44,608 nucleotides of DNA from an uncultured Alphaproteobacteria bacterium (GTDB lineage: Bacteria; Pseudomonadota; Alphaproteobacteria; HIMB59; GCA-002718135). A program made the translations under genes and the position numbers. Below the pieces are notes generated by a model, which worked only from the letters and a program-made list of their open reading frames with translations, had not been told where the DNA came from and made no database searches. Below are positions 8,406-19,192 of the stretch, piece after piece (positions within the stretch are counted from its first letter, which is position 1; the number at the start of each line of letters is the position of its first letter). The stretch spans positions 1-44,608 of the forward strand of contig CACKSM010000007.1 in assembly GCA_902602885.1 (NCBI GenBank), given 5' to 3'.

Positions 8406-8490
8406 GGGAGTATGGCGGAACTGGTAGACGCGCCGGATTCAAAATCCGGTCACTTCGGTGGTGTGGGTTCGATTCCCTCTACTCCTACCA
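8406..8490 (+). tRNA. tRNA-Leu (anticodon CAA)
   Basis: GGGAGTA/TACTCCT acceptor, anticodon arm CCGGA-TTCAAAA-TCCGG, long variable arm, GGTTCGATTCC T-arm, encoded CCA. Confidence 0.95.
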
Positions 8491-8491
8491 A
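8430..8491 (+). repeat. attL (3' part of tRNA-Leu)
   Basis: Identical to 17976-18037. Confidence 0.93.
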
Positions 8492-8529
8492 CAAAAATTA
8501 GCCTCTATCAAATTTCAGATTTAAAAAAG

Positions 8530-8551
8530 TTGCCCTGTGGTTGCCCTACGC
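8530..8551 (+). repeat. Tandem 11-bp repeats (putative integrase arm sites, attL side)
   Basis: TTGCCCTGTGG-TTGCCCTACGC. Confidence 0.5.
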
Positions 8552-8570
8552 TTCTAGAAAGTGAGAAGTT

Positions 8571-9569
8571 ATGGCGTACATACAACGACGTAAAAGACAT
8601 AAAGGTTGGACGTATACTGTTCACGTTAAACGCAAAGGTTTTAAAACTATGGTTAGAACTTTTGATATCAGATCCCAGGCTCAAAAGTGGGCAAGAGGGG
8701 TCGAACGTAAACTAGATATAGGCGATTACTCAGATTATACGGAGGCGAGTAAGTTAACTTTAAGAGATTTACTCAATCGATATAAAACTGAAAACAAGCA
8801 TAAGCGTAAAAAAGATTGGAAGGGCGAGGAATATAAGATCAATTATATCCTTAAAGATACAATCGCTGATACGAATTGTTTGAGATTATCTACTAAACAC
8901 TTAATCGAGTTTAGAGAAAGAAGATTAATGACAGTTAGTGGGTCTACTTTTAATAAAGACCTATCTTTCATTTCTACTATTATCCAAACAGCGATTAATG
9001 ATTGGGGAATATATTTTCCTAGTAATCCTTGTAGAGCTATTAAGCGCGAAAAAGAAAATGATCCAAGAGATCGAGTGTTAGAACCAAGCGAACAAAAGGA
9101 ATTATTAGAAGCCTGTGCTTTAGTTAATAACCCTTACCTTAAACCTATGGTTCAGTTCTCGATTGAAACAGCTGTAAGAAGATCGGAACTATTAGGAATA
9201 CGATATAAAAATATTAACTTCACTAATAGAACCTTGCTTTTAACCAACACTAAGAACGGCAAGGACAGGACTATTCCGTTAAGCGAAAAAGCTTTCTTAA
9301 TCTTGCAATCACAACCAAGACAGTTTGACGGAAAAGTTTTTCCTATGACTAATAATCAAGTGAAACATTTTTGGGACGAAGCTTTACAGAAAACAAACAT
9401 AAAAGGTTTTAGGTGGCACGATCTAAGGCGTCATGCGTGTACTCTTATGTTCGAGAAAGGCTTATCAGTTCCAGAAGTACAACTTTGTTCTGGACATCTC
9501 GATCCAAAGATACTTTTAAAAACTTATACGAAGCTTGATCCAAAGAAGCTCGTTGCAAAATTAGGTTAG
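8571..9569 (+). CDS. int: Tyrosine recombinase/integrase
   Basis: TAVRRSELLGIR, WHDLRRHACT, CSGHLDPKILLKTYTKL catalytic motifs (R...HxxR...H...Y). Confidence 0.95.
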   Translation: MAYIQRRKRHKGWTYTVHVKRKGFKTMVRTFDIRSQAQKWARGVERKLDIGDYSDYTEASKLTLRDLLNRYKTENKHKRKKDWKGEEYKINYILKDTIADTNCLRLSTKHLIEFRERRLMTVSGSTFNKDLSFISTIIQTAINDWGIYFPSNPCRAIKREKENDPRDRVLEPSEQKELLEACALVNNPYLKPMVQFSIETAVRRSELLGIRYKNINFTNRTLLLTNTKNGKDRTIPLSEKAFLILQSQPRQFDGKVFPMTNNQVKHFWDEALQKTNIKGFRWHDLRRHACTLMFEKGLSVPEVQLCSGHLDPKILLKTYTKLDPKKLVAKLG

Positions 9570-9577
9570 GAGGAAAT

Positions 9578-9676
9578 ATGGTAGGATTTATTTTTTGGTT
9601 AGCCTTGTTACCAATTAAGCTTTGGATTGCTTATCACGTAATAATTTTTATTTATTCTGTTTGGCTTGGCTTATAA
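9578..9676 (+). CDS. 32-aa single-transmembrane microprotein (putative)
   Basis: AGGAGG Shine-Dalgarno just before ATG; MVGFIFWLALLPIKLWIAYHVIIFIYSVWLGL; not in the ORF track. Confidence 0.5.
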   Translation: MVGFIFWLALLPIKLWIAYHVIIFIYSVWLGL

Positions 9677-9727
9677 CTAGCGTATAGGCCGATTGGGTTA
9701 GTGGTAAGGCCTATCACTAGCCCTTTT
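9677..9727. terminator. Putative terminator after the integrase operon
   Basis: Inverted repeat CTAGCGTATAGGCC ... GGCCTATCACTAG followed by CCCTTTTTAT. Confidence 0.6.
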
Positions 9728-9741
9728 TATTTTTATCACAA

Positions 9742-10446
9742 TTATATTTTGAATACTGTTTCAAGTGCAACAAAAGATCTGTCATAAATTTTTTCGTTAA
9801 AATCTTCTTCTGTTTTTTCATCCCAAATATCATAATCACCAAGATACCTAGTTCTTATATCGCCAATCATTTGTTGATAATCAGCTTTATAAAAACCTGA
9901 AGGTAAAGTTCTTTCAAGATTAATTTTCTCTTCTAAATCTTCACCTCCAATTCGAAGCTCAAAGTCAATAGCTGTAAAGAATTTAGGATTATATTCTTTA
10001 GCAAATTCACGAGGCGAGAAAACATCTTTTAATTTAGTATATTTTTTGAGCTCATTTTCTCTTAAGTATCTGTGTTTGAGTATAGTTTTATCCATATCAT
10101 CAAGTCTATTTAACCAGTGTTTAGTAAAAGAAAATTGAATTAATTTATTATTATATGAATAAGATTTTATGATTGCTTCTGTTGCCGTTTCTTTTTTTCC
10201 TCCAGGGCCATCTAGTTGTAAATAATTAAATTTATTCCATATTTTATTTGTAGTACTGTTATAGCGCTCTATTACTTCTCTTTTAGCGTCCTCTAGTTTG
10301 AATTCATTGTATTTGACTTTCACATCGACAAAAAAATTTTCTATCACTAATAATTCATTATTTGAAAAGTTTCTTTTCTCTCTAGGGTAAGATTCATCTA
10401 TACCCAAATTATCAAATGACTTTTCTAAAAAACTTTTGATACTCAT
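9742..10446 (-). CDS. Orphan element cargo protein (234 aa), unknown function
   Basis: Long ORF, no family recognised. Confidence 0.6.
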   Translation of the reverse strand: MSIKSFLEKSFDNLGIDESYPREKRNFSNNELLVIENFFVDVKVKYNEFKLEDAKREVIERYNSTTNKIWNKFNYLQLDGPGGKKETATEAIIKSYSYNNKLIQFSFTKHWLNRLDDMDKTILKHRYLRENELKKYTKLKDVFSPREFAKEYNPKFFTAIDFELRIGGEDLEEKINLERTLPSGFYKADYQQMIGDIRTRYLGDYDIWDEKTEEDFNEKIYDRSFVALETVFKI

Positions 10447-10470
10447 TGATTTAATTATACTTTTAGTTTT

Positions 10471-10506
10471 TTCATCACGATTATCTTACCATCAACTAAG
10501 GAGATT
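10471..10506. repeat. Leader repeat copy A
   Basis: 30/36 identical to 11381-11416 by hand alignment. Confidence 0.75.
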
Positions 10507-10508
10507 TA

Positions 10509-10542
10509 AAAGAAGGCTCCATTAATTTGGGGCCTTTTTTAA
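10509..10542. terminator. Putative intrinsic terminator
   Basis: AAGGCTCC-ATTAATTT-GGGGCCTTTTTTAA hairpin with T-tract. Confidence 0.6.
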
Positions 10543-11408
10543 TCACTTCTGTTTAGAATTATATCAATAAAATTAAGATAAATTCCTGTTCCACAAAACT
10601 CCCAAAATCTCTCATCATAGTCTTTATACATCTCTTTTATTTTTATATTTTCTTTAACCATTTGACGACAAAGATCGTAGGTTATTCTTTCATTAAAATC
10701 CAAACTGGAGTCTGAAGGGATATCATTTAAAGCCTTGGTAATTTTGTTTTTAAATTCTTCATTGGTTATTTGTGACTCATTCCATTCTCTAATAATAGAC
10801 AACTTTTTTAATCTTGTTTCTTCGAAAATTTTCTCACATTCTTTGCGAGTTCCATTACTTGAAAATTGAGAAGATATTGAACAATCAACCTCACTTTCTT
10901 TATTTCCTATTCTTGAATTTTCGCACCATTCTTTACTTTTTCGCATTAAGCCATTTTCTTCATGGTGTTTTTTGAAATTATCTAGGTTACCATTACATAG
11001 CTCAGCATATTCACTATATAACTTTGCAACATGTTCTCTATCTTCTTTTTTCGTTATCTTATCTATATCTTTTAGGTGTTTTCTATAAGGATTTAAGTCA
11101 ATACACAGATCTCTAATTGTATATTCATCATTGCAAGCATAGTGATCGTATCTTTTTTCAAGATAAACTAAATTTTCTTCTCTTATTTTTTCAACAATAT
11201 TTATTTCTTCCTCATCACTTCTAGTTACCAAGTTCTCAACAACACTTGTACTAGTATCATAAATTTTTTCAGCTGCTTGAGAAGCTTCTTTACCTAAGTT
11301 GAGTAAACTTTCTCCAGAATAAATTAACAATAAGATAAGAAATATTAATATACCGATTACCAGACCAACAATTTCTTTCTTCATCAGTATTACCCTACCA
11401 CCAACCAA
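10539..11408 (-). CDS. Membrane-anchored Cys-rich element cargo protein, unknown function
   Basis: N-terminal TM helix (VGLVIGILIFLILLLIY) then a ~240-aa hydrophilic domain with 8 Cys; the better start is ATG at 11384 (MKKEIVGL). Confidence 0.6.
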   Translation of the reverse strand: MVGGRVILMKKEIVGLVIGILIFLILLLIYSGESLLNLGKEASQAAEKIYDTSTSVVENLVTRSDEEEINIVEKIREENLVYLEKRYDHYACNDEYTIRDLCIDLNPYRKHLKDIDKITKKEDREHVAKLYSEYAELCNGNLDNFKKHHEENGLMRKSKEWCENSRIGNKESEVDCSISSQFSSNGTRKECEKIFEETRLKKLSIIREWNESQITNEEFKNKITKALNDIPSDSSLDFNERITYDLCRQMVKENIKIKEMYKDYDERFWEFCGTGIYLNFIDIILNRSD

Positions 11409-11416
11409 GGAGATTG
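11381..11416. repeat. Leader repeat copy B
   Basis: 30/36 identical to 10471-10506. Confidence 0.75.
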
Positions 11417-11460
11417 TTAAGGGTTCTAGTCATAGTAACTAATATTTACTATAAATAATT

Positions 11461-11676
11461 GTGTTTATTATCAGATACCTGGTGCTAATTTTCTGTGTAA
11501 TGACAGCAATGCTCATGCAAACAAAGCAAAAGATAAAACAGAATAAAGTTTTAATGACTATATGTTTAGATAAAGAATTACTTAAACAATTTAAAAAAGT
11601 TGCACAAAAAGATTTGCGTAAATACTCAAATATCGTGGAAGGTAGTATTCGTAGATATGTGCAGAGTAAGATTTAA
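11461..11676 (+). CDS. Small putative ribbon-helix-helix-like DNA-binding protein
   Basis: VLMTICLDKELLKQFKKVAQKDLRKYSNIVEGSIRRYV resembles the RHH pattern (strand then two helices); start may be internal. Confidence 0.45.
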   Translation: MFIIRYLVLIFCVMTAMLMQTKQKIKQNKVLMTICLDKELLKQFKKVAQKDLRKYSNIVEGSIRRYVQSKI

Positions 11677-11677
11677 A

Positions 11678-11702
11678 TGGTGGCATCTATTAGATCCCAC
11701 CA
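11678..11702. terminator. Hairpin between convergent genes
   Basis: TGGTGG-c-ATCT-att-AGAT-c-CCACCA inverted repeat. Confidence 0.5.
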
Positions 11703-11739
11703 ATAGGAATTAATTTACTTTATTATTTTTTTTGAATTT

Positions 11740-12117
11740 TTAAAGAGTAATTACTTGATCTGGTGGATTTGATCCAAGAGCAGTGTATAATTGTGGAAAA
11801 CATCCTGCTACCACACCATCAACTAAACCTTTTGCTTTAACATCTCCACTTCCGCATTGTTCTAAAGTTCCATCAGCAAAACCTCTTCTTACAGCACACT
11901 GGTCACATACCATTAATAGCATTTTTTTTTCATTAGCAATTTTTGATAATCTCTCACCAACAGGATCTCCTTTTTTTAGACAAAAAATGTTATCGTCAAA
12001 AAAAAACATCCCAGCAACATCTACTACGTGGGAGTTTTGTTCCAGTTGTGGCAATATCATTGTAGCAAGTTGAAAAGTGCTTGCCATATTATTTCTAAAT
12101 ACATACGCGACTTTCAT
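11740..12117 (-). CDS. DsrE/DsrF-like sulfur-relay family protein
   Basis: DsrE-like fold pattern with VCDQCAVRRG cysteine motif and GVVAGCFPQLY; preceded by AAGGAG. Confidence 0.7.
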   Translation of the reverse strand: MKVAYVFRNNMASTFQLATMILPQLEQNSHVVDVAGMFFFDDNIFCLKKGDPVGERLSKIANEKKMLLMVCDQCAVRRGFADGTLEQCGSGDVKAKGLVDGVVAGCFPQLYTALGSNPPDQVITL

Positions 12118-12140
12118 ATTATCTCCTTATTTTATATTAA

Positions 12141-12162
12141 TTGTTATGTTATAACATAACAA
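12141..12162. promoter_or_regulatory. 22-bp perfect palindrome, putative operator of the DsrE-like gene
   Basis: TTGTTATGTTATAACATAACAA; overlaps a minus-strand -10 (TGTTAT) 17 bp from -35 TTGACT (plus coordinates 12179-12184). Confidence 0.7.
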
Positions 12163-12729
12163 CATCATACAATATTAAAGTCAATATAAAATTGCTTTAA
12201 ATTAGAGGGTTTTCTCAATGAGGTTTTCAGTGAATGTTCAATGAAGTTTGAATTGAAAATAAGAGACACAGAGAAGTCTTAAATACGAAATACTTCTGGT
12301 TGCGTTTATTGATGACCTTCTTCGTCTTCTTGCTATACGATTAGCATAGCAAGTATTGGAAACACAAGTGAAAATATGTTGAAAAAACGATACATGAAAA
12401 ATTATCAAAACGATCATGTTGTTCAACTTCAAGAAAAACTATTTAAAAGAAGTTAAAAGTTAAATAATCACTATCAACAAATAAGGTTTGTATATTCTTG
12501 CAAATTCATTACTTTTTTAATTACACACCCATCACAGCTATAATTGCAATTTCTCAGAATAATCATCTGCACAAACATACGTTAATATTCTCACAATTTA
12601 TTTATTTTGGTGTGTTACGTGTGAAGCAGGCAGAAAAAAAAGAAAAATAGACATGTTAGGGAGTGTGATTGCCTGTGTTGGCCTGTGTCAGTCATTGTGT
12701 CATGCACCTGTTTTAATTATTAATGTCTC

Positions 12730-13224
12730 ATGCCTACATTAATAAAACCGGGAGTGCTGGCAAAAGCATTAAATGTTACCACCAACGCATTGAGGAAACG
12801 CAGAATAAGGGACAGTGATCCATATGACTTTGTAATTGACTCTAGTACAGGAAGAGCAAATTATATTTTGGAAGAACTGCCTGAGAGTGTCCGTACAAAC
12901 GTGGAAAAGATCACGAAAAGAGGGACAAACAGATCACATGAGCAGGCGATGAAAGAGGATTGGAAATATGCAAATACATTAGGCAAGGCAAATGCCAGGC
13001 GTATAAAAATTCATGAAGATGAGGTAGCTGAAAAAGCTAAATTACAAAAAGAAAAAGAAGAAAGACATGCTCTCATGCAGAAAGCGAGACGGGATCCGCG
13101 GCGCGTGGAAAGAGATTATTGCTACTGGACTAATGCTCATGAGGTCAGCAATTATTGGGACAGTATTGAAGATTATGAACGTTACAAAAATAAAAAGAAT
13201 AAGAAATTTACCGGTTATTATTAA
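12730..13224 (+). CDS. Putative HTH DNA-binding protein
   Basis: N-terminal PGVLAKALNVTTNALRKRRIRD resembles a helix-turn-helix; charged C-terminus. Confidence 0.5.
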   Translation: MPTLIKPGVLAKALNVTTNALRKRRIRDSDPYDFVIDSSTGRANYILEELPESVRTNVEKITKRGTNRSHEQAMKEDWKYANTLGKANARRIKIHEDEVAEKAKLQKEKEERHALMQKARRDPRRVERDYCYWTNAHEVSNYWDSIEDYERYKNKKNKKFTGYY

Positions 13225-13332
13225 TCGGTGTGTGAGCCTGTGATAATCACATCATAGCTATCCATTTTATTTGCAACACATATCAAATTTTTATATAAAG
13301 GAGGTCACGCTGTACATTAAGAAAAGAGCTTT

Positions 13333-13704
13333 TTGCCAATCGGTTGCAGGTCAGGTTTCACTAAGTTAAGGCCTTTAGTGGAGTTAGAAAGGAGTCGACC
13401 CGTACTCAACACAAAAGGGGTGGCTTTAGCAGGTATGTTAAAGTTTCAGATGCGAGTGTCCTTGTCGGAAAAATCATTTTACAGAATGAAATTTATGCAC
13501 GACATTGATACTATGTACTTAACTAAAAAAGATTTAGCTAAATCCTTAAATGTTAGTCTATCTACTATTGATAGAAGATTAAAAGAATTACCTCATTACA
13601 AGTGGGGTAATAAACCACAAAGTCGTGTTGTGTTTGTTGCTAGGGAGGTAAGAGATTATTTCGACAGTAACTATTCTGTAAATAAAAAAAGGGAGAGTCA
13701 GTAA
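13333..13704 (+). CDS. Small HTH protein (AlpA/excisionase-like); true start probably 13491 or 13497
   Basis: MYLTKKDLAKSLNVSLSTIDRRLKELPHYKWG winged-HTH-like segment; upstream part of the ORF looks non-conserved. Confidence 0.6.
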   Translation: MPIGCRSGFTKLRPLVELERSRPVLNTKGVALAGMLKFQMRVSLSEKSFYRMKFMHDIDTMYLTKKDLAKSLNVSLSTIDRRLKELPHYKWGNKPQSRVVFVAREVRDYFDSNYSVNKKRESQ

Positions 13705-13720
13705 AATGATTCTCCCTTTT
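13687..13720 (+). terminator. Intrinsic terminator overlapping the 3' end of the HTH gene
   Basis: AAAAGGGAGA ... TCTCCCTTTT perfect 10-bp stem spanning the stop codon at 13702-13704. Confidence 0.75.
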
Positions 13721-13739
13721 ATAGTTTTAGGATACAACA

Positions 13740-13988
13740 ATGACTTATCAGAAAAGAAGAGACTTTAACAGTCTAAGATTACAAAACTACATAGACGTCT
13801 TACCCAAGACAAATAAATTTAAAAAGTTGCGGGAAGATTCATATTTAACAAACTGTCCATGCCATGATGATAACAATCCATCGTTAGCAATCTCACAAGG
13901 ACACAGTAGAGTAATATTTAAATGCTTTGCAGGTTGCAGTCAGCAAGAATTGCTGAATTATTTTTCTAACGAATTGAGGCAGTCATGA
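13740..13988 (+). CDS. CHC2-type zinc-finger primase subunit (stand-alone)
   Basis: NCPCHDDNNPSLAIS...VIFKCFAGCSQQELL matches the CHC2 zinc-finger pattern. Confidence 0.8.
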   Translation: MTYQKRRDFNSLRLQNYIDVLPKTNKFKKLREDSYLTNCPCHDDNNPSLAISQGHSRVIFKCFAGCSQQELLNYFSNELRQS

Positions 13989-14257
13989 CAGAGCATAAAA
14001 AAAATAAAAATCCTCATATCGATTGGTTTGGTAAAAAATTTACAAATACAAAACAGCATAATGATTTTGGTCATTGGACTGAACCAAGAGAATTAAAAAG
14101 ATCAAAAGAGGTGCGTGATCATGGATACGAAAGACCTGAGCTAGAAACTGCTGATCAAATATCCATGCACCATAAGCTGTGCAAACTGCATCGTGAGTTT
14201 TATGACAAGTACGGGTGGACACCAACATTATTAGGAGACATGTATGACAGAGATTAA
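13985..14257 (+). CDS. Hypothetical element protein
   Basis: ORF overlapping both neighbours in the replication operon. Confidence 0.5.
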   Translation: MTEHKKNKNPHIDWFGKKFTNTKQHNDFGHWTEPRELKRSKEVRDHGYERPELETADQISMHHKLCKLHREFYDKYGWTPTLLGDMYDRD

Positions 14258-16436
14258 TTATAAACCTGTCCCGTTTCCTAAAGGCGATAAACAGTATTTA
14301 CAAAAATTTAAACTGCATAAGGAGGGTAAGGATCATCATCTTTACGATACAGGTAAGGCAGGAGAAATTGCATTTGGTGTTAAATTATTTCGTAACCCAG
14401 ACACAAATAAAAAGAGTATGCCTTGTTTTTCATACTGTGCAAATAAAGGAGGTTATGAAAAGAAAAATTTATGGACTAAAGAATTCCATAAAGATAATCC
14501 AAAGTACAAAGGTAAACCATTATTTAAACGCAGTGGTTTGCTGCAAACACAAAAACCCATCATCATGGTTGAGGGTGAGGTTAAGTGTAATACTGCACAA
14601 AAATTATATGCAAATCATTTCGTTACGACATATCAAGGTGGCCGTAGTGGTTGGGGTGATCATGAATTAAAAAAATATCACACAGACTTTTCAGATCTCA
14701 AAGGTAGAGACGTAACTTTATGGCCAGATATAGATCAAGACGGAGAGGGTAAGGTTCAATTTGAAAAACTGTGCAGGGTATTAATAGATGATTTTAAAGT
14801 TAATGCTAAAATAGTTAACCTACCAGAGTTTGATGAGGTTTGTTCTCTATACAAAGAAGAATATCAAGAGGACTTTACAAAAACATCATACGATCTTGAT
14901 GATCTATTGATCTCTCATTGGTCAGAGAACCTAGATGAAATGATCTTAGATACATATGTCCCTGAGCCAAGTGTCTTGGTTGAGATACCATATTCCAATA
15001 TTGCAAAAGACATAAACAATTTAGTGTTTATAGATAATGCTCAAAACCCTGTTTATTATGACATTACAAAAAATAAATTAACAAGTGGTAAAAGTCTAAA
15101 TGAGAAATACCAAAGAGATATAAAAAATCTCAAAGGTCAGCCGCATGCTACAAAATTTTTAAATAGAAATAATTGTGCTATCGTAGACGGGTTGGCATTT
15201 AAACCAGGTGCAGATAAAATTTATAACGGGCATGGTAAGTTTGAGGGACAGAAACTATTAAATAAATATCAGTGGCCTAAGTTTGAAAAAATTGATGAGT
15301 CAGTAAACTATGAAGATGAATTATCCTTTGTCCGTGATCATATAAAAAATATTCTATGTGGTGGTAGTGAATTAGAATTTAACAGATTTGAAAATATATT
15401 TGCATCAGATTTCAGAAATCCTGAGAGAAATAGAAAATATATGGTGGTGTTAAAATCATCTAAAGGTGTAGGCAAGTCATGGTTATGGAATGTTTTATCA
15501 GAGTGTTATGGCGCTAGAAATTGTCAGCCAATAGATTTCAAGCAGCTAACAGGGCAGTACCAAGGTTGCTTAACCGAAAGCTGTTATTTATTTATTGATG
15601 AAGTAGAGAGCAGGGGATTTGAAGATAAGGACAGAAGAGCAAATCTTAAAAGGCTAGTATCTGAATCATATCACACCATAGATATGAAAATGATAAATCA
15701 TTTTACGATAAATTGTTTTTATACAATTTGGGGTTCTACTAACGAGGAGATACCATTAAAGATTGATGAAGATCCAGAAGAAGAACGTAGGCTTTATTAT
15801 TTAGAAATACCTTACGATAAAAAATATATTTATGAAAATTACGGAGAGGATTATTTTAAAAGATTATTTGGGTTCTTTGATCCAGACGTAAGAAGTCATA
15901 AGATGATGAGGAATATTCATCTGTTTTATGATTATTATCGTTACAGATTTAAAGCTGATCCTTTATTTGACATTACTACTGCACCATTAACCGAGGCTAA
16001 AGTTAGATTAGCTAAGTTAAATAGACCTGCATATTATAATTATCTTGATGAAATAATTGCACAAAAGAGAGTGCCTGCCACAAGAAAAGATTTTGTAAAT
16101 CAAAATGAATTCATGGAGGAGGTTATTGATTATGCTCATGAAGATAAATTATCTCCCATCGCACGTAATCAGTGGAAGCCTAATATGTTTGAAATCTATT
16201 TTAAGAAAAACAAAAAACATTTTTCATTACCAGAAGCAGTAAGAGGATTTGACAGAGACAATCCAAACAGGAAGCTGAGGGGACAGTGTATTCGTAACCA
16301 TGAACAGTGGAAAGCATTACAATATAACTATCCTGTCATAGAGGCACACCTTGTTGATAATTCTGTCGATACAAGCAAGCTACAACAGTTTGTAGAACAA
16401 CAAGAGCAAAATAAGGAGGCAACAAATGATAGATAA
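14244..16436 (+). CDS. TOPRIM/SF3-like primase-helicase
   Basis: TOPRIM-like IIMVEGEVKCNTA and WPDIDQDG; Walker A SSKGVGKS; Walker B CYLFIDEVES; NCFYTIWGSTNEEIPL sensor-like motif. Confidence 0.85.
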   Translation: MTEINYKPVPFPKGDKQYLQKFKLHKEGKDHHLYDTGKAGEIAFGVKLFRNPDTNKKSMPCFSYCANKGGYEKKNLWTKEFHKDNPKYKGKPLFKRSGLLQTQKPIIMVEGEVKCNTAQKLYANHFVTTYQGGRSGWGDHELKKYHTDFSDLKGRDVTLWPDIDQDGEGKVQFEKLCRVLIDDFKVNAKIVNLPEFDEVCSLYKEEYQEDFTKTSYDLDDLLISHWSENLDEMILDTYVPEPSVLVEIPYSNIAKDINNLVFIDNAQNPVYYDITKNKLTSGKSLNEKYQRDIKNLKGQPHATKFLNRNNCAIVDGLAFKPGADKIYNGHGKFEGQKLLNKYQWPKFEKIDESVNYEDELSFVRDHIKNILCGGSELEFNRFENIFASDFRNPERNRKYMVVLKSSKGVGKSWLWNVLSECYGARNCQPIDFKQLTGQYQGCLTESCYLFIDEVESRGFEDKDRRANLKRLVSESYHTIDMKMINHFTINCFYTIWGSTNEEIPLKIDEDPEEERRLYYLEIPYDKKYIYENYGEDYFKRLFGFFDPDVRSHKMMRNIHLFYDYYRYRFKADPLFDITTAPLTEAKVRLAKLNRPAYYNYLDEIIAQKRVPATRKDFVNQNEFMEEVIDYAHEDKLSPIARNQWKPNMFEIYFKKNKKHFSLPEAVRGFDRDNPNRKLRGQCIRNHEQWKALQYNYPVIEAHLVDNSVDTSKLQQFVEQQEQNKEATNDR

Positions 16437-16785
16437 GTACGATAAGGGTACGATAGATATTTTTGATCCAGAACATTGGCACCCAGCTAATAAACCAGCA
16501 AAGAAAGAAGAGCATAAAGAGCAGACAGAGAAAGTAAAAAGTCCCTATCAGATGAATAGGCAGGAACTAAGAGAGTATTATAAAAATAAAAGAGAAGAGG
16601 ATCGTGTGAAGCGTTACGTGAACAATCTGCATGCTAGTGATGAGTATGTAAGGAGGTTAGAGGATCAGCTAGTCATGACCAGAGCTTTTATAACATACAA
16701 CAAATTAGAACCAGATTTAGAAAAATATAAACAAAAGGTGCAGGAGGTTAACAATGCCACTAAAAAAGAAAAAACAAAGACGTAA
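16426..16785 (+). CDS. Hypothetical charged element protein
   Basis: ORF overlapping the primase-helicase stop; same operon. Confidence 0.55.
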   Translation: MIDKYDKGTIDIFDPEHWHPANKPAKKEEHKEQTEKVKSPYQMNRQELREYYKNKREEDRVKRYVNNLHASDEYVRRLEDQLVMTRAFITYNKLEPDLEKYKQKVQEVNNATKKEKTKT

Positions 16786-17116
16786 AGTCTTAACAAATGA
16801 TGACGTAGCATTTCTTACGAAACTAAAAGAGCATAGCTACACATGGTATCCATTTGAATACCACCAGACTTATTTTGAAGTGTTACAGGATCTTATAGAT
16901 ACGTGGCCAAAGAAATCATTTACTAAAACACAGACAGGCAAAGACTTTGTTGAGTTTGGTTATGTAGTAGGATTTTTAACGTGTCAGAAATTTCATATGG
17001 AAGTTGATGATAAGCGGCAGATAATAGATGAGTTTCTAACTTCTAATAAAGAAGAAATGATAAAACTGCGGGAGAAATATAAATTAAAAGCATTAGAACC
17101 TAATTTCGATATATAA
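16754..17116 (+). CDS. Hypothetical element protein
   Basis: ORF in the same operon, preceded by GGAGG. Confidence 0.55.
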   Translation: MPLKKKKQRRKVLTNDDVAFLTKLKEHSYTWYPFEYHQTYFEVLQDLIDTWPKKSFTKTQTGKDFVEFGYVVGFLTCQKFHMEVDDKRQIIDEFLTSNKEEMIKLREKYKLKALEPNFDI

Positions 17117-17152
17117 ATTTTAAGCCTGTAGGACTACTGCAGGCCTTAAAAT
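17117..17152. terminator. Bidirectional terminator
   Basis: ATTTTAAGCCTG ... CAGGCCTTAAAAT between convergent ORFs. Confidence 0.75.
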
Positions 17153-17409
17153 AATTTTCCCTCATTAAATAAAAAATAAATAAACATTAAGAAAAAAACA
17201 ATAGCTGCTAAAACAATAAACCACCAAAAAATTATGTAAAACCAATCCCAAAATACTCCAACAAATTTGTATCTTTGTTTTAATTTGGAATTAAACTGAT
17301 CTAAGCGACCAATTATATAAAACACAATAAATAATCCTATAGCCCATTGAATTGCTTCTATTTGAAGTAGGCCTAAAACAGTGGAGTAAATATAATCTAT
17401 TATAGGCAT
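17146..17409 (-). CDS. Small two-TM membrane protein, unknown
   Basis: Two hydrophobic segments in 87 aa. Confidence 0.5.
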   Translation of the reverse strand: MPIIDYIYSTVLGLLQIEAIQWAIGLFIVFYIIGRLDQFNSKLKQRYKFVGVFWDWFYIIFWWFIVLAAIVFFLMFIYFLFNEGKLF

Positions 17410-17826
17410 TCCAAATATTACCTCATTTTATATAAGTTTTTTATAAAAATTTTTTTTGGCTTAGGGACGTTAAAGGTATTTTTCTCAGAATTAGGGTGTA
17501 CTCGTATTGATAAGTTAGTCTGTGTTTGTCTAGATTATTGACCTTTAGTCGTTCTATACAACGACGGGTCATTTAGGGGGGTGGCATGAATATTTTTTTT
17601 TCGATCGCTGACAAAGAAACTTTTTAAGTACCTAACTAATAAATAAACAGGAACAGCTGGAGGCTGTTCCACCGGAGGTGGAGCCGAATTTTGCCCTTTA
17701 AGATTCCAAATTTGATTCTCAGGAATCGAAAACGGGTTAAGCCGAACCAAACTACCCTCGTAAAAATAGATTCAAAAACAGAATCATTTTGAGCTTTTAA
17801 AGAATCAAATAGAACCGTTTTTTTGG

Positions 17827-17848
17827 ATTCCCTATGGATTCCCTGTGG
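17827..17848 (+). repeat. Tandem 11-bp repeats (putative integrase arm sites, attR side)
   Basis: ATTCCCTATGG-ATTCCCTGTGG. Confidence 0.55.
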
Positions 17849-17975
17849 TCAACTTTTTCCTGTAATATTCTTTTATGTCGAGTGATCTCGTGTTAAAGAT
17901 TCAGTTAAGAAGTTAGGTTAACACTTAACTTTTTTAAAATGAATTTGACGAAAGGATATAAGGCGTAGGTACGTT

Positions 17976-18037
17976 GCGCCGGATTCAAAATCCGGTCACT
18001 TCGGTGGTGTGGGTTCGATTCCCTCTACTCCTACCAA
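17976..18037 (+). repeat. attR (copy of the tRNA-Leu 3' part)
   Basis: Identical to 8430-8491. Confidence 0.93.
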
Positions 18038-19192
18038 TTTATCTTCACGCATTATAAAAAACATTAGTAAAGCAATCAAAAACATTATTACGCCTAATGC
18101 ATACATATTAAATGTTAAACCAAAAGCTTCAGCTGAAATTCCAACGACAGCAGGTCCAAATATAGCTCCAACAAAAGCAATACTTGATACATGAGAAATA
18201 GTAACTGGAATTGGATTTTGAGAATTTTTTACTGCCTGTCTAAATACTATGGGCATAACGTTGGAAATTAACATTCCAAAAAGTGTTATTGCTATAAAAA
18301 TAATAATTATATTTTGAGAAAAAATACTTAACACCAATATTGTGGATCCAACCATTGCAAAACATGGACCTACAATTACTTCACCAAGTTTTGTAATTAA
18401 TTTTGATGCAAACATATTACTTATGATCTCACCTAAATTAAAAAAAATAACTATTGAACCGACTAAAAAAATTGGCGCAGAAAGATCAGTAACGAGCCAT
18501 AAAGGTGACCATTGAATTATTATTCCCATAAATGCGATAATACACATGTTAATTGATGCGAACATGATAATTTTATAGTTTGGAATTGAAAATCTAGGAT
18601 TTTTGTTAACTACATCATACTTTACATGCAATCCAAAAAAGTACATTGTCAAAGTTGATATAAAAACAAACAAACCTAAAATAAAAGTAGTATTAACAGG
18701 GTCAATTTCTAAACCTAGACATAAACTAGATATTCCTGCGCCAAAAAGAAATCCAAAATTAAACGATGATTTAAAAATTGGATTAAGAATTTTTTTAGTT
18801 TTTTCTTCTATTATCGCAACTTGTGTAAAAATATTTGGTGCTTGTATGCCAATAGAAATACCCCACAACATAGATACAAAAATAAAAAAATTATAAGAAG
18901 AGAAATAAAAAATAGAAAAAGGAATAAATGCATACAATAGCCTGGCAATAATTAAACAATTTGTGCTTCCTATTTTTGGGAGTAAAAAACGGGTTGTTAG
19001 TTGATTGGTAATTACATTACAAATACCAAAAATAATAAATCCTATAGAAAATTCTGTTTTTGTCATATCAATCAAATCAAAAAGAATTGGTGAATTTACC
19101 ATGAACATACTGAAGGTAAGCGTTGCAAAGAATCCTTGTGAAAAGGTAGCATAAAATGCGGTTTTTAATTCTTTAGTTTCTATATTTTCCAT
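17996..19192 (-). CDS. MFS transporter
   Basis: Multiple TM helices; C-terminal GVEGIEPTPPK is read from antisense tRNA-Leu/attR sequence. Confidence 0.8.
   Translation of the reverse strand: MENIETKELKTAFYATFSQGFFATLTFSMFMVNSPILFDLIDMTKTEFSIGFIIFGICNVITNQLTTRFLLPKIGSTNCLIIARLLYAFIPFSIFYFSSYNFFIFVSMLWGISIGIQAPNIFTQVAIIEEKTKKILNPIFKSSFNFGFLFGAGISSLCLGLEIDPVNTTFILGLFVFISTLTMYFFGLHVKYDVVNKNPRFSIPNYKIIMFASINMCIIAFMGIIIQWSPLWLVTDLSAPIFLVGSIVIFFNLGEIISNMFASKLITKLGEVIVGPCFAMVGSTILVLSIFSQNIIIIFIAITLFGMLISNVMPIVFRQAVKNSQNPIPVTISHVSSIAFVGAIFGPAVVGISAEAFGLTFNMYALGVIMFLIALLMFFIMREDKLVGVEGIEPTPPK

Follow-up and report, generated by a model that had tools for sequence, protein, structure and literature searches.

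The question raised by the 44,608-nt stretch of DNA analyzed here (hereafter the window) is what kind of mobile element lies behind its tRNA-Leu(CAA) gene, and how such an element moves between cells. The window is a whole contig, with a G+C content of about 30%, of a 1.11-Mb, 75% complete genome. An earlier note on this DNA had pointed to a complete tRNA-Leu, an adjoining integrase and a copy of the tRNA 3′ part 9.55 kb away, and had left the choice between a satellite and a replicating integrative plasmid. We conclude that the insert is an integrative element that appears intact, would leave and enter tRNA-Leu(CAA), would replicate itself once excised, and would move between cells by borrowed machinery, most likely as a minimal satellite carried by a helper phage. 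We assign this reading a probability of roughly 55%.

The insert is a discrete integrative element because it is bounded by an exact repeat and because its site is empty in six congeners. ARAGORN, repeat analysis and Pfam bore out the three components named in the earlier note. The direct repeat is identical over 62 of 62 bp at a spacing of 9,546 bp, and is by far the longest repeat of the region. A second ARAGORN call (17952-18036) was rejected as a genuine second tRNA; tRNA-Leu sequence is confined to 17976-18036 and the 5′ part of the call is unrelated, as befits a displaced 3′ fragment. An empty attachment site, for which the earlier note had proposed a search, was found in the congeners G012, G088, G027, G054, G095, and G048 (loci L060-L063, L065, and L066; G and L numbers are our handles for genomes and loci). 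There, a single tRNA stands between the flanking genes and leads directly into the sequence from 18038; the match to the window runs up to position 8491 and from 17976 onward, with 93-94% identity on both sides. These empty sites fix the limits of the element. They also bear on whether the insert might be a domesticated island, that is, a former mobile element that became fixed and lost its ability to excise. Its single copy in the genome would suit such a history, as would the fact that most congeners hold only integrase-less inserts at tRNA-Leu. However, the integrase, the rep gene and both att copies are intact, and clean empty sites in congeners with flanks this similar point to recent gain or ongoing loss, so that we regard domestication as improbable. 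The host flank is variable too: some congeners have two diverged tandem copies of the major facilitator superfamily (MFS) transporter gene that borders the site on the right (17996-19192), and others have none (G037 L121, G002 L123, G073 L127, G021 L115).

The integrase starts 80 bp beyond the att repeat and is intact; the residues that a tyrosine recombinase should have are all retained (R203, K228, H283, R286, H309, and Y319). Its presumed arm sites are pairs of near-identical 8-mers spaced by 11 bp. Among 29 insert units, such pairs were present at 20 of 29 left ends and 18 of 27 right ends, compared with 3.2 and 4.3, respectively, in shuffled sequences, and the offset of 11 stood well above the other fifteen offsets, although related cassettes share their ends and the cases are therefore not independent. 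Measured from the tRNA start, the pairs lie at about +121 to +124 on the left and about -90 on the right in both attachment types, the right pair of the window lying at about -125. Within L040 and within L046, the two pairs match each other and differ from those of the window. At tRNA-Leu(CAA), some inserts have duplicated the 3′ part of the gene, as in the window, and others its 5′ part, as in G070, although the integrases of these two elements are 85% identical. We place the crossover in the anticodon loop because tRNA positions 37-42 are where the clear fragments of the two types overlap, the few degenerate fragments being uninformative. Integrases that are 75-85% identical yet associated with opposite tRNA halves were seen in L041, L042, and L055 relative to the window, and in L038 relative to L039. 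A second integrase clade, about 33% identical, is located at tRNA-Gly(GCC) (L049-L053), where it is accompanied by different multi-gene cargo and by repeats of tRNA parts. We propose that the window integrase recombines at the anticodon loop while binding the paired arm sites on both sides, with the AlpA-like helix-turn-helix (HTH) protein as the likely excisionase.

The genes for this HTH protein, a zinc ribbon, a small open reading frame (ORF), rep and two further small ORFs form one overlapping series. Rep scored 50.5 bits against PF19263 (cut-off 27.6), and its profile matches the solved primase 6k9c/6lrb (3.6e-26), which we take to be the primase-polymerase of phage NrS-1. It matched 90 phage records versus 5 plasmid records, all weak, and by these matches Rep is of phage type. 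The nearest solved fold to the product of the preceding gene, oC, is the DNA-binding domain of Mu transposase (1tns, E 0.015), its predicted model being of moderate confidence (pLDDT 72). The Mu-type winged HTH, the zinc ribbon and the Toprim/DUF5906 primase-helicase would together start and drive replication from the right-end region.

That region, a non-coding stretch 3′ of the operon, is conserved across elements whose proteins are about one third identical. It combines an AT-rich box, AGGGACGTTAAAGGTATTTTT (exact in L037), TAAGTACCTA (found in the window, L037, L038, and L040) and GC-rich hairpins. We consider it a candidate replication origin, a packaging site being the alternative candidate function. 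In six of six elements, a zone about 80-280 bp from the right end has a higher density of GANTC sites than the remainder, with Poisson probabilities from 2e-9 in the window to 0.01 in the weakest element; these values are uncorrected for the scan of positions, and two of the window sites belong to an arm pair. GANTC is the motif of CcrM, the methylase of Caulobacter's group. The host genome has a methylase-type gene with a RAMA domain, and the same search among 14 control genomes was positive in Caulobacter only; replication may perhaps be under the control of host GANTC methylation. The right-end block was also seen as a relic in a sugar-biosynthesis-like island that holds no element (L147:9050-9400, G088:C1) and at a contig end, next to a 97.6% identical copy of the ORF at 17146-17409 (L146:7839-8164, G021:C4).

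Of 102 genomes of the genus, 6 carry a Rep homologue, compared with 0 of 60 other genomes of the order; every one of these homologues has an integrase homologue and a duplicated part of a tRNA nearby. The six elements occupy tRNA-Leu (window), tRNA-Ser (L037, L040), tRNA-Gln (L038, L039), and tRNA-Gly (L046), and the order oC, HTH, zinc ribbon, rep is the same in L037 and L038. Their 80 ORFs were compared with PHROG, Pfam and PADLOC, the results covering the 25 commonest families and matches no weaker than about 1e-4 (PHROG) or 2e-3 (Pfam). The matches listed comprise integrases, primases, HTH proteins and cargo, the last including a sulfotransferase, DUF4268/PDC-S11 (a candidate defence gene), SH3 and MORN proteins; structural, packaging and relaxase families were not among them. 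PHROG matches common to several elements were rejected as conserved accessory genes, as they do not come from the small syntenic ORFs. The view of the earlier note that the window element has no recognizable capsid, portal, terminase or relaxase gene agrees with hidden Markov model scans of its ORFs (PHROG, Pfam). Might it then be a decayed prophage that has lost its structural genes? Its phage-type integrase and primase would be expected of one, but its ORFs are intact and form an operon, and five relatives at other tRNAs equally show no structural genes among the matches listed, which argues for a lineage of its own and makes prophage decay very improbable.

Because no capsid, packaging or relaxase gene was found, spread as a minimal satellite inside the particles of a helper phage seems the likeliest route, and we give helper-phage transfer about half of the weight. 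A replicating integrative plasmid or cryptic mobilizable element would instead move without a phage, through a conjugative helper and an origin of transfer (oriT), through vesicles or by transformation. The self-contained replication operon with its candidate origin would serve such an element equally well, the matches listed include no phage packaging gene, and the DsrE/SaoD cargo is metabolic rather than antiphage. On the other hand, a relaxase family is likewise missing from the matches listed for the 80 ORFs, Rep matches phage records far more than plasmid records, and the related elements and the integrase-less cassettes described below carry the candidate defence gene PDC-S11 and an HNH nuclease, respectively, as satellites often do. 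We consider this phage-free account rather unlikely. Several results nonetheless weigh against the helper-phage satellite. The element has no packaging gene and no proven cos or pac site. The window's match to the AlpA-type HTH family PF12728 reached 17.3 bits, below the cut-off of 27, the best value among the six elements being 3.6e-9. Element DNA gave zero matches against 50,697 phage records. Scans of IMG/VR viral contigs were empty for rep (using an alignment of three Reps, that of six being too diverse), the integrase, oC and a 20-bp right-end motif, which is a weak negative because that collection was picked by viral genes. Of the interpretation in the earlier note, the integrative element has held up, and the PICMI-like gene content (see below) and phage-type Rep fit a satellite; the choice between a satellite and the other routes is one that we infer.

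The tRNA-Leu site itself has a wider history of insertion. Extra tRNA-Leu fragments lie beside the tRNA in about two dozen congeners, but intact integrases of the window kind are located there only in G000, G070, and G004, with a truncated one in G066. Most inserts at tRNA-Leu lack an integrase; these units measure 0.6-4.8 kb, contain few genes and are bounded by tRNA-Leu(CAA) parts, and they stand in tandem in G058 (three units) and in G073, G021, and G004 (two each). They form two groups, each with an end-matched integrase-bearing element, because their left ends match either that of the window (41-84 bp at 85-98% identity; cassettes in G011, G021 (two), G023, G080, G086, and G094) or that of the G070 element (85-99%). 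Since integrase remnants persist in some of them (G066, G021b), decay of full elements contributes to the cassettes. Varied cargo behind the same ends is also what mobilization in trans would predict, short of proof, and cassettes that share the ends of the window element but lack an integrase are probably further substrates of its integrase.

A second link between these inserts is a leader (CTTAACAATCTCCTTGGTTGGTGGTAGGGTAAT), present in two copies in the window, which stands ahead of unrelated cargo genes in many elements. An ATG follows its GTTGGTGGTA core by 9-11 nt in 14 of 14 listed cases, that of one window copy opening a frame of just six codons. A sequence model built from 15 copies was positive in 61 of 102 genomes, and the only two matches in the window genome were the two copies in the element. 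Of 20 further leader loci, 13 include tRNA-Gly, -Gln, or -Arg within the sequence retrieved, and in most of these a part of the tRNA is duplicated. A 606-bp unit consisting of the leader end plus a gene is 94% identical between tRNA-Leu (G087) and tRNA-Gly (G011, G021, G014, G091), and a second leader-plus-gene unit of about 640 bp is 96-97% identical between tRNA-Arg and tRNA-Gly; in these units similarity ends near the gene ends. The leader was unsupported as an RNA structure (RNAalifold, -0.35 kcal/mol), and our guess is that it is a promoter or translation leader. One might tentatively view tRNA anticodon loops in this marine lineage as the attachment sites of an integron-like cassette economy, in which a few autonomous, self-replicating satellites, the window element among them, supply integrases that act in trans on many integrase-less cassettes of one to a few genes whose arm sites match, and leader-plus-gene cargo units, each with the common start-associated expression leader, are swapped between backbones and tRNA sites. 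The features discussed are collected in Table 1.

Table 1. Features of the window element, in window coordinates, and related loci in congeners.
Feature	Position	Strand	Basis
Intact tRNA-Leu(CAA), attachment gene	8406-8490	+	ARAGORN; same gene intact at congeners' empty sites
att repeat, left copy, 62 bp	8430-8491	+	Repeat analysis
Left pair of presumed integrase arm sites, GTTGCCCTGTGGTTGCCCT, 8-mers 11 bp apart	8529-8547	+	Paired 8-mer scan; stretch kept in integrase-less cassettes
Tyrosine integrase, 332 aa	8571-9569	+	Pfam PF00589 Phage_integrase 2.6e-24; PHROG integrase 3.4e-57
Cargo ORF, 234 aa, family-less	9742-10446	-	Pfam, PHROG
Shared cargo leader, copy 1	10470-10541	-	ATG at usual distance opens 6-codon frame only; cargo ORF start 27 nt further on
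Family-less cargo ORF, probably membrane-anchored; 281 aa from post-leader ATG (listed with 289 aa, to 11408)	10539-11384	-	ORF list, family scans
Shared cargo leader, copy 2	11379-11450	-	ATG 11 nt past GTTGGTGGTA core
Small Arc-like repressor	11461-11676	+	PHROG 3180 1.4e-6
DsrE/SaoD-family cargo gene, 125 aa	11740-12117	-	NCBIfam NF040913 1.1e-57, 193 bits, above cut-off
oC, 164 aa, winged-HTH DNA-binding protein with long helix (Mu-transposase-type domain)	12730-13224	+	Predicted structure, weak fold match; kept in L037, L038
AlpA/excisionase-like HTH, TTG start as listed, internal ATG likely	13333-13704	+	PHROG 66 2.8e-5; HTH_17 0.0058, below cut-off
CHC2 zinc ribbon of primase	13740-13988	+	PF01807 6.4e-7
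Small ORF between zinc ribbon and rep, family-less	13985-14257	+	ORF list; Pfam, PHROG
Primase-helicase (rep), 730 aa: Toprim-like N-terminal half and DUF5906 helicase	14244-16436	+	PF19263 4e-13, above cut-off
Two small overlapping ORFs at operon end, family-less	16426-16785, 16754-17116	+	ORF list; family scans
Small membrane-type ORF	17146-17409	-	97.6% identical copy in G021:C4 beside same right-end block
Conserved non-coding region: AT box, AGGGACGTTAAAGGTATTTTT, TAAGTACCTAA, GC hairpins; candidate replication origin	17425-17740	+	Cross-element comparison
Nine-site GANTC cluster	17702-17902	+	Motif count
Right pair of presumed arm sites, TGGATTCCCTATGGATTCCCTG	17824-17845	+	Paired 8-mer scan
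att repeat, right copy (displaced tRNA 3′ part)	17976-18037	+	Repeat analysis; empty-site comparison
Integrase-less cassette loci	L114-L127, L130, L131, L136, L137, L139-L144		11-bp-spaced 8-mer pairs at both ends
Leader loci beyond the window	L038, L044, L053, L056, L115, L119, L122, L129, L178-L197		

The host probably belongs to HIMB59/AEGEAN-169, a highly streamlined clade that abounds in the surface ocean and about whose mobile elements little is known. HIMB59 was formerly named AEGEAN-169 (PMC12416821), and for the family GCA-002718135 a genome size of 1.70 Mb with 29% G+C is given (PMC10734472). Exchange of a genomic island in this clade has been attributed to homologous recombination, border tRNAs being absent (PMC10734472). 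The element in the window is complete and autonomous; its ends are mapped, its empty site is known, and there are candidates for its arm sites and its origin. Its relatives hint at the way in which small cargo genes change hands at tRNA genes, possibly as a gene-shuffling system. To a specialist, the surprise would lie in the cassettes and the shared leader. The window makes two questions directly testable: whether one integrase moves integrase-less cassettes in trans, and whether a common leader gives an incoming gene immediate expression.

Comparison with known systems separates the cassettes from the element. The window integrase scored 25.1 bits against the integron integrase (IntI) model, far from its cut-off of 265, and by this model is not an IntI integrase. 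The congeners' cassettes resemble cis-mobilizable elements (CIMEs; PMC5704250) in that they keep both ends, have lost the integrase and transfer genes, and accrete in tandem at a tRNA. They differ in being very small, with one to a few genes, in being very frequent, in forming two groups that match two integrase-bearing elements, and in cargo that passes between tRNA sites as leader-plus-gene units. The class does not extend to the window element. The leader recalls the start-associated sequences of cluster K mycobacteriophages (PMC3203893), conserved sequences that immediately precede the start codons of unrelated genes, but differs from them in sequence and length and marks cargo genes across many elements and hosts.

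As for the element, Pfam and PHROG found no structural or terminase gene of a prophage in it, and the matches listed for the 80 ORFs include neither the capsid, capsid-remodelling or packaging genes of phage-inducible chromosomal islands (PICIs), P4-like satellites or capsid-forming PICIs (cfPICIs) nor, there or in the window element, the relaxase of an integrative and mobilizable element (IME). Like the virion-encapsidated integrative mobile elements (VEIMEs; Eppley et al., 2022, cited in PMC11389934), it is marine, bears an integrase and has no virion of its own. With tycheposons (PMC10872708, PMC11389934) it shares a marine streamlined host, integration at a tRNA by a tyrosine recombinase, cargo and a replication gene, although it is smaller than most. 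The closest likeness is to the phage-inducible chromosomal minimalist islands (PICMIs), whose model core is an integrase, AlpA and a DUF5906-type primase (PMC10803314). The element is similarly small, within an overlapping size range (5-14 kb), and has an integrase (PF00589, 2.6e-24), a DUF5906/DUF3987 primase (PF19263) and direct repeats, with no capsid or packaging gene; its AlpA-like HTH matches PF12728 below the cut-off. VEIMEs are defined by their presence in virions, tycheposons by recombinases of a deep-branching clade, and PICMIs travel in the particles of helper phages. PICMIs are located next to fis in Vibrionaceae; the window element lies at tRNA-Leu, has alphaproteobacterial relatives and a marine alphaproteobacterial host, and carries an extra Mu-type HTH and a separate zinc ribbon. 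It would thus work like a PICMI, yet we do not file it as one, its site and host being different.

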